Below are positions 40,761 to 43,174 of a stretch of 64,000 nt of DNA, in pieces (the stretch's first letter is position 1; each line of letters starts with the position of its first letter). Position numbers and translations under genes: made by a program. The notes below the pieces were generated by a model. It saw nothing but the letters and a program-made list of their open reading frames with translations. It searched no databases and was not told where the DNA came from. Source of the DNA: Dictyophora rubrovolvata (lineage: Eukaryota > Basidiomycota > Agaricomycetes > Phallales > Phallaceae); NCBI GenBank assembly GCA_029959195.1, contig CP114121.1:930001-994000 (forward strand), written 5' to 3'.

Positions 40761-43174
40761 ATGCGTTACATCGCCTCTTTTCTCGTTCTTTCTGGAATTG
40801 TCTCCGCTCGTACTCGTTTCTTTTCGCTCGACATTGCTGACCGTCTTCTCGCTCCAGATGGACATCTACGCTCTGTCGTCACTGTTAATGGAAGTACACC
40901 AGGTCCATTGATATATGCCGAAAAGGGAGATCAGATAATGGTGAACGTGACAAACCATCTTCAAGTATAAATCAACGCCCTCTGCTTGTGCAACCCGCAA
41001 ACAAATATCTCTATCATAGGATCCCCTAATGCGACGTAGTACAACTATCCATTGGCATGGAATTGTAGATCTTTGATTATCTGGGCTGACAGATATCTGA
41101 TGGATTTTCTAGTATCAGAAGAAACGAGCCCAAGACGACGGACCAGCGTGGGTGACTCAGGTAAGTCTATATGCATCGTATCATGTTATAACCACATCTA
41201 GAATTCTTCCTCAGTGTCCAATAGCCTTCAAGTACGTACCATTTGACCTATTTATACCGATCCGGGCGCATACATAGATAGCCATTCATATACGTATCTC
41301 GTCGATTCGGGAGAACAGGCAGGGACCTTCTGGTACCATAGTCATCTGAGTACACAATACATAGACGGTCTTCGGGGACCTTTGATTATCTATGGCAAGT
41401 CTTCGAGTATCGTGTGCGTTTTTAAGCTGATAACATCAGACCCGAGTGACCCTCATGCACACCTTTATGACGTTGACGATGCGTCCACCATTATCAGTTT
41501 GACTGATTGGTACCAGCAATATAGCGAACAACTTGTTGGTACGTTGCATTTTTAAAACAGTATGATTCTGGGTTCAAAGAAGAGAAATAAGGGGACTGGA
41601 TGGAGAACATCATCACCGAACCTGTTCCTGATTCTGTTTTACTCAACGGTAAATATTGTAATATCTAAATTCAAGTATTGCATGCAATTATTGACAGGTG
41701 TTGGCCGATATCGCGACGGACCGAAGATTAAACGAGCCGTTATCACAGTGGAGAAAGGTATTCTGATTTTACTTGGTTTTGAGGAGCGAAGCGGACTGTT
41801 CGTGAGGCAAACGTTATAGATTTCGCTTGATCAATATGAGCGCAATCGTTCCATTTCGGTTTGCCATTGAAGGTCATTATTTTACGGTGATCGAAGTTGA
41901 TGGCATAAACCATAAACCGCTCACTGCTACGTCTCTTTCAATCTCGGCTGGGCAACGCTATTCTATTGTTCTTCACGCAAGCCAGAAGATCAATAATTAT
42001 TGGATTACATTTCCAACCATATTCTTGGGGAATAGCACCACGTCAGCAAATCCAAATTATAACGGAAGCGAAGCTTACGCCGTCTTGCATTACAAGGGTG
42101 CTCCGGATGAAGAACCAGCCAGCTCGGAATTAGTTTCCTCTATTACTGGTGCTCTTGGCACAATGGGTGGGCTACAAGAGTATCAATTGACTGTATGCGC
42201 CTTTTACTGCGTTATTATCGGTATCGATTATATTAATTCTAGCCACTGGAAAACGCCGTCCCACCTGGAGGTTCCAATCCGGACATTACTATTAAGCTCA
42301 ACTTCACGACGACCAAGCCTGGAGATAGCAGCACTGTGGGTGGAGGCAATAATTGGATTGTCAACGGGGAAAGGGTGACTCGTATTTTACTTCTTTTTGC
42401 GAGGTTTACTAATCTGTCTAGTACACTCCTCCCACACTCCCTACTTTGCTTGAAATTTTGAGGGATACACACATATCGCCGTAAAAATCTATACATTATT
42501 GATGCCCTTTTGATTAACTGTTACATTAGAGCGAGTTTTCGTCAGCATCAAGCGACATATGTGCTTCCTCCAAATAAAACCGTTGAGGTTCGGCTGATCG
42601 GAGACGCGGCACATCCATTTCACTTGGTTTGTCTCTTCCCCTGACAAGCTTTCAGGCCCTTAATATGATACGATGATTAGCACGGTCATGCGTTTTCCGT
42701 GATACAGTCAGCCACAGGTCCTTTGAACCTTGTCAATCCACCGATTCGCGATACTGTCGATTCCAGCAACGACTTGTTCAACCCTGTTACTATTCGGTTC
42801 CGAACCGATAACCCTGGCCCCTGGGTGAGAATGTCCCCTTGTCTAGCGAATGCCCTGAGATTGACTTTTACCCAAGTTCTTACATTGGTACGGCTATTGT
42901 TAACAATAGATGATGTGGTCGCTAAAGTGGAGGTTCGGCAGTCATAAAGATTGGCACCTGGAAGCTGGGCTTGCCGTGGGTAAGCCATCTCATGCTTTTA
43001 GGATAAGTTCTGTCGTACAATCTTTTGCGGTTCCTATCAGTATTCGCAGAGGATCCCGGAGATGAACGCACAGGGGCGGACTCGCTACATCCATCGAAGC
43101 AGTGGCAAGACCTGTGCCCAATTTATCACGCTCTTCCAATTGAAGTACGCGGTTGGTTTTTTGTTAGGGCCTGA
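40761..43174 (+). CDS. Laccase (multicopper oxidase)
   Basis: Oxidises phenolic substrates and reduces O2 to water; secreted (signal peptide [16 protein letters not shown]). Sixteen exons sum to 547 residues: 40761-40964, 41020-41064, 41113-41160, 41215-41231, 41282-41394, 41440-41538, 41592-41648, 41698-41757, 41807-42192, 42243-42374, 42422-42480, 42530-42626, 42681-42824, 42877-42887, 42942-42979, 43041-43174. Copper motifs are IHWHG, WYHSH, HPFHLHGH and [12 protein letters not shown]. The last is built from an 11-base microexon (42877-42887) coding FLH plus two bases of Cys. The intron after exon 5 (41395-41439) has a GC donor [20 protein letters not shown] and [12 protein letters not shown] are typical Agaricomycete laccase stretches. 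All ten His ligands and the T1 Cys appear present. Confidence 0.92.

Follow-up and report, generated by a model that had tools for sequence, protein, structure and literature searches.

Identity and structure of the laccase gene

The stretch of DNA analysed here, a 64-kb window (positions 930001-994000 of contig C5) in a genome of 28.24 Mb and 11 contigs, holds a multicopper oxidase gene that raises a question: can an exon of only 11 nucleotides supply the cysteine that binds the type 1 copper of a laccase? If so, the catalytic Cys of an industrially important enzyme family depends on an exon with which gene prediction may have difficulty, and laccase genes of this kind could be misread as broken. 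The gene model was obtained by reading the frames first and then joining the exons by a script; start and stop were chosen by eye, and the spliced alignments described below do not extend to both of them. The gene and two of its smaller parts are as follows:

40761..43174, + strand: laccase gene from start codon to stop, 16 exons, 547 aa (exon assembly, Pfam, PDB match)
41215..41231, + strand: exon 4, 17 nt, encoding CPIAF plus two bases of N, another very small exon of this laccase (assembly, spliced alignment)
41395..41439, + strand: intron 5, 45 nt, with a GC-AG border, frame open if retained (563 codons) (frames, assembly, spliced alignment)

Retention of the GC-AG intron 5 (41395-41439) would add 15 residues and no stop. 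The 16 exons, separated by 15 introns, sum to 1644 bases, that is 548 codons including the stop, or 547 residues. This total agrees with the 548 codons given by the initial annotation once the stop is counted, although the border between exons 6 and 7 is less certain, as two of the alignments (queries 9gly and 1gyc) place it at 41534/41606 instead of the 41538/41592 of the model, which means 6 codons fewer and an unchanged frame. This border is the soft spot of the model, making the total of 548 less certain than exon 14. Open frames of at least 110 aa lie on both sides of the laccase gene and on both strands between 36.5 and 47 kb; those on the minus strand at 43.5-44.4 kb, read by eye, may encode a WD-repeat protein.

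Pfam domains Cu-oxidase_3, Cu-oxidase and Cu-oxidase_2 (PF07732, PF00394 and PF07731) were all found in the predicted protein above their curated cut-offs, with E values from 2.5e-36 to 4.8e-42. The best PDB match is the laccase 9gly (E 3.6e-156), while matches to FET3 (1zpu, 3.1e-53) and ascorbate oxidase (1aoz, 5.7e-46) are far weaker; identities to the laccases 9gly, 1gyc and 1v10 are 55, 48 and 47%, respectively. In a tree of 14 rows the window laccase groups with six laccases of its own genome (support 95/94), the nearest paralog being L010 (56% identical), and its end branch measures 0.52 changes per column. In the accessible part of PMC7700495 laccases are defined by 10 His and 1 Cys copper ligands lying in motifs L1-L4. 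All of these ligands are kept in the predicted window protein, where the four motifs are complete after splicing (HWHG, HSH, HPFHLHGH and HCHKDWH). Judged by its domains, ligands and closest relatives, the gene is classed from sequence as a laccase sensu stricto, and its product would be a four-copper laccase in which Lys replaces the usual Ile after HCH.

This Lys (AAA, 42946-42948) sets the window laccase apart from the other 14 aligned sequences, of which 13 have Ile and one Val at that place. The Ile after HCH presumably adjoins the type 1 copper, so that a Lys there might be of consequence; a single codon supports it, and an assembly error could explain it. Besides, 9gly and 1gyc have two Cys (in STQYC and SISC), which we take to be a disulphide pair; both are missing from the window laccase and from six paralogs (L009, L010, L011, L013, L014 and L016), where the Cys-less stretches read STQY[V/I] and VSVSA/INMSA.

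Evidence for the 11-nt exon

The region that yields the fourth copper motif is composed of these parts:

42681..42824, + strand: exon 13, HGHAFSV...FRTDNPGPW, phase 0 at its end, last bases CCCTGG (exon assembly, spliced alignment)
42825..42876, + strand: intron 13, 52 nt, GTGAGA...CCCAAG (donor at percentile 31, acceptor at percentile 27 of 147 reference introns)
42877..42887, + strand: exon 14, 11-nt microexon TTCTTACATTG, encoding Phe, Leu, His and the two first bases of the type 1 copper Cys codon (assembly, alignment, path enumeration, shuffles)
42888..42941, + strand: intron 14, 54 nt, GTACGG...TTCGGCAG, with a weak acceptor context (donor at percentile 30, acceptor at percentile 4)
42942..42979, + strand: exon 15, 38 nt, which first completes the Cys; entered in phase 0 it reads TCA TAA, a stop (sequence, assembly, path enumeration)

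Exon 14 is directly preceded by ...TTTTACCCAAG and directly followed by GTACGG, and a match to YTRAY is present in intron 13, 16 nt ahead of the intron end. Its 11 nt fall within the size limits for microexons given in the accessible parts of two publications (up to 30 nt, PMC7821500; smallest class up to 15 nt, PMC8831610).

A spliced aligner was written for this analysis, using as queries the three solved laccases 9gly, 1gyc and 1v10, and each of the three returned exon 42877-42887 when aligned to the window DNA. The boundaries of exon 14, its phase and its neighbours 42824 and 42942 had been proposed in the initial annotation, and a re-reading of the sequence agrees with them, as do all three alignments for exon 14 itself. 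The same annotation held that the HCH motif can be obtained only through the 11-base exon, a claim that stood up when the paths from exon 13 to the end of exon 15 were enumerated, covering none to two introns of 35-200 nt, all with GT-AG borders. Of 1197 paths, 581 are open and five contain HCHxxxH; all five include exon 42877-42887 together with intron 42888-42941, and only one leaves exon 13 complete. When paths were also required to join exon 16 in frame, 211 remained, five with HCHxxxH and 206 without it.

The interior of the exon 13-15 region was further shuffled 60000 times preserving dinucleotides. An open exon of the right phase appeared in 38803 shuffles, thus openness means nothing as evidence, while any HCH was reached in 75 and HCH at the spacing of laccases in 3. 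The 15-base pattern AGTTYNTNCAYTGGT occurs five times in the 28.2 Mb genome and four times when read backwards as a control, hence the evidence for exon 14 is its gene context and not the 15-mer. Taken as a prediction, the eleven-base exon 14 of the window laccase is confirmed in silico.

Splicing around exon 14 and alternative explanations

Splice sites were scored against 147 introns of 12 multicopper oxidase genes, those of the paralogs being taken from the same aligner; this set corresponds to 189 introns minus 42 that adjoin exons of 25 nt or less. Relative to this reference the sites around exon 14 are weak, with donors at percentiles 31 and 30 and acceptors at percentiles 27 and 4. The lengths of introns 13 and 14 (52 and 54 nt) match those of the 189 introns (median 57 nt, 5-95% range 48-88). 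Skipping of exon 14 needs a single intron of 117 nt, and only 2 of the 189 are longer. Moreover, exon 13 joined to exon 15 reads CCC TGG TCA TAA and stops immediately, so a gene caller that misses the microexon, as the initial annotation thought probable, would need other splice sites.

Intron definition is usual for short fungal introns, and a mechanism of this type may operate here. Two short introns, separated by 11 bases, flank the FLHC codons; each would be recognised as a unit across itself, and exon length would then impose no lower limit. An exon too short for binding at both ends at once would have to be joined to a neighbour first; introns 13 and 14 would be excised in two successive steps, the earlier of which would attach the 11 bases to an exon of normal size. 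Failure by skipping would lead to the stop codon in TGG TCA TAA and probably to decay of the mRNA.

We estimate a probability of about 0.88 that exon 14 is constitutively spliced as an 11-nt microexon in a gene for a laccase sensu stricto. The five genomic occurrences of the bare 15-base pattern AGTTYNTNCAYTGGT would suit the opposite idea, namely that the motif is a chance reading, with HCH unused or built from another exon, yet the 1197 paths hold no other source of HCHxxxH and the shuffles reach HCH at laccase spacing in 3 of 60000, and we give this idea practically no credence. It is also improbable that exon 14 serves as a regulated switch, whereby inclusion would give an active laccase, exclusion a truncated frame with mRNA decay, and splicing would set the enzyme level. 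Weak flanking splice sites and the immediate stop upon exclusion are consistent with such a switch, for which a condition-dependent microexon described in the accessible part of PMC11121469 (Xlr2 of Trichoderma virens) offers a precedent; but the same source describes microexons as usually multiples of three, which 11 nt is not, loss of function is the only consequence of skipping that we see, and the sequence, in which no sign of regulation was found, cannot tell regulation from simple inefficiency.

The weakness of the sites could also be understood as relaxed constraint in a laccase that is losing its function. The intron 14 acceptor at percentile 4 and the Lys beside the copper Cys (Ile in 13 and Val in 1 of the 14 other aligned sequences) would fit decay of this sort, which we consider very improbable given that 547 codons run across 15 introns without a stop or frameshift, that all 11 copper ligands are kept, and that the protein is still 56% identical to L010; its end branch of 0.52 changes per column is long, and not decisive.

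Predicted microexons in the paralogs

Genome searches with PF07731 and PF00394 found the same 12 loci, a count to be read as a lower bound (at least 12). The paralogs were modelled from a single query (9gly), and their gene models are uncertain wherever conservation is poor. Matches to NCBIfam were all below cut-off for the three proteins tried. No counterpart of intron 13 or 14 at the same position and phase was found in the 11 paralogs of the same genome, and thus the exact borders of exon 14 receive no comparative support from them. The six classical laccases (L009, L010, L011, L013, L014 and L016) have no intron at either position; the nearest counterpart is an intron of L012 that interrupts this Cys codon at a point shifted by one base (phase 1 versus phase 2). 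L012 is a Fet3-like gene (PDB FET3, 1.4e-92), and its positions 2820-2829 form a 10-nt exon, GTCATATCGA, in the HCH motif, which supplies two bases for Cys, the full codons for His and Ile, and two bases for Asp. It is a further HCH microexon, whose borders are unlike those of exon 14 of the window laccase.

Very small exons recur among the multicopper oxidase paralogs. The second exon in the models of the six classical laccases has 15 nt, encoding exactly HWHGI, and is followed by an exon of 20 nt. In L017 and L018 the introns before exons of 18 nt, an example of the uncertain parts of the models, have donors and acceptors at percentiles 0-3. These two genes and L019, laccase-like multicopper oxidase genes outside the window that are 52-63% identical to one another, have their copper motif L2 (W-H-S/A-H-Y/F) split over an exon of 5 nt and then one of 3 nt, ATT:

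L017, 1218-1222 and 1285-1287: tandem exons of 5 nt and 3 nt (ATT), in the region C8:2133162-2133338, + strand (path enumeration, shuffles)
L018, 921-925 and 988-990: tandem exons of 5 nt and 3 nt (ATT), in the region C3:2024668-2024841, + strand (path enumeration, shuffles)
L019, 1176-1180 and 1247-1249, reverse complement: tandem exons of 5 nt and 3 nt (ATT), in the region C9:949199-949384, - strand (path enumeration, shuffles)

All nine introns around these exons are GT-AG and measure 52-66 nt. Enumeration allowing at most three GT-AG introns, each of 38-200 nt, gave 1822, 305 and 952 paths for L017, L018 and L019, respectively, and in each gene the path through the tandem exons is the only one to preserve the motif at its proper distance from QYxDG; if this distance is disregarded, 2, 2 and 9 paths have the motif. 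A substitute for the tandem exons arose in 4, 1 and 5 of 4000 shuffles. Intron sequences can hardly be aligned between the three genes (0.6 to 3.2 s.d. above shuffled sequences). Counting against the tandem arrangement, both splice sites of the intron that follows the 3-nt exon of L017 score poorly (donor at percentile 3, acceptor at percentile 16). The 3 nt are required for the second His in L017, whereas in L018 and L019 skipping would preserve the frame at the cost of the Tyr alone. Predicted in the same manner, the tandem exons would be stronger examples than exon 14 of the window laccase, and they would offer a good natural test of how a spliceosome deals with exons so short that their two splice sites cannot be bound simultaneously.

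Expected frequency of tiny exons and intron positions

The possibility that small size is in itself significant was rejected. Random placement of the 15 introns of the window laccase is expected to give 1.35 internal exons no longer than 11 nt, and one is seen; for all 12 genes, whose paralogs are not independent, 20.8 are expected and 8 seen, tiny exons being if anything fewer than by chance. These figures, together with the microexons published for Phanerochaete chrysosporium, place exon 14 of the window laccase in a known kind. As a kind it is ordinary: tiny exons are already known in wood-rotting fungi, and no new kind of biology is involved.

Positions of introns relative to the conserved motifs were also compared. 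Of 69 distinct intron positions, 8 lie in the four copper-motif cores, where 2.85 would be expected (hypergeometric P 0.006, in a test designed after the exons had been seen); a single tandem event contributes two of the eight through its borders, and the L012 microexon contributes another two in the same way. Other conserved columns contain 20 positions, with 17.9 expected. An enrichment of introns in the copper-motif cores is weakly suggestive on these counts. A broader proposal would be that in this fungus the introns of multicopper oxidase genes land preferentially on codons for copper ligands, with independently derived microexons exactly on the ligands (FLHC of 11 nt and CHID of 10 nt in L4, tandem exons of 5 and 3 nt in L2), tying enzyme activation to accurate splicing at the lower limit of exon size; we regard it as unlikely.

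Comparison with known systems

No published laccase microexon was found among the matches listed in our literature search, which mostly left out subscription journals and does not show that none has been published; the accessible parts of PMC3342255 and PMC3990503 yielded nothing on laccase or fungal microexons. Laccase genes are described as intron-rich, with 11-23 introns of mean length 58 bp in Amylostereum areolatum (PMC7700495) and 10-12 introns in Pycnoporus cinnabarinus (PMC4101180). The window laccase resembles both families in this respect, and the accessible parts of those two reports mention no microexon and give no exon lengths.

The microexon in Xlr2 of T. virens is alike in that inclusion of a fungal microexon decides function, and differs in being glucose-regulated according to the accessible part of PMC11121469, no sign of regulation having been seen at exon 14. 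Similar in the way it was recognised is an exon of Fusarium CYP621A; the available text of PMC12940212 describes it as a single nucleotide, aligned across 24 sequences, with confirmation by reads from two species. There, as with exon 14, manual assembly was used since the conserved motif and the phase fail without the exon; exon 14, by comparison, is a predicted exon of 11 nt in one gene.

A further likeness is to the P450 genes of P. chrysosporium. In the accessible part of PMC1184071, microexons are reported for nearly one-third of these genes, with exons of 2-10 aa and a minimum exon length of 6 bp, and short introns of 45-55 bp are frequent; the portion available of PMC12940212 cites an 8-nt exon in the conserved P450 I-helix motif AGHETT. 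That white-rot fungus shares with the window laccase its short introns and tiny exons, one of them in a conserved motif. The P450s are another enzyme family, whereas exon 14 carries a metal-ligand codon of a multicopper oxidase.
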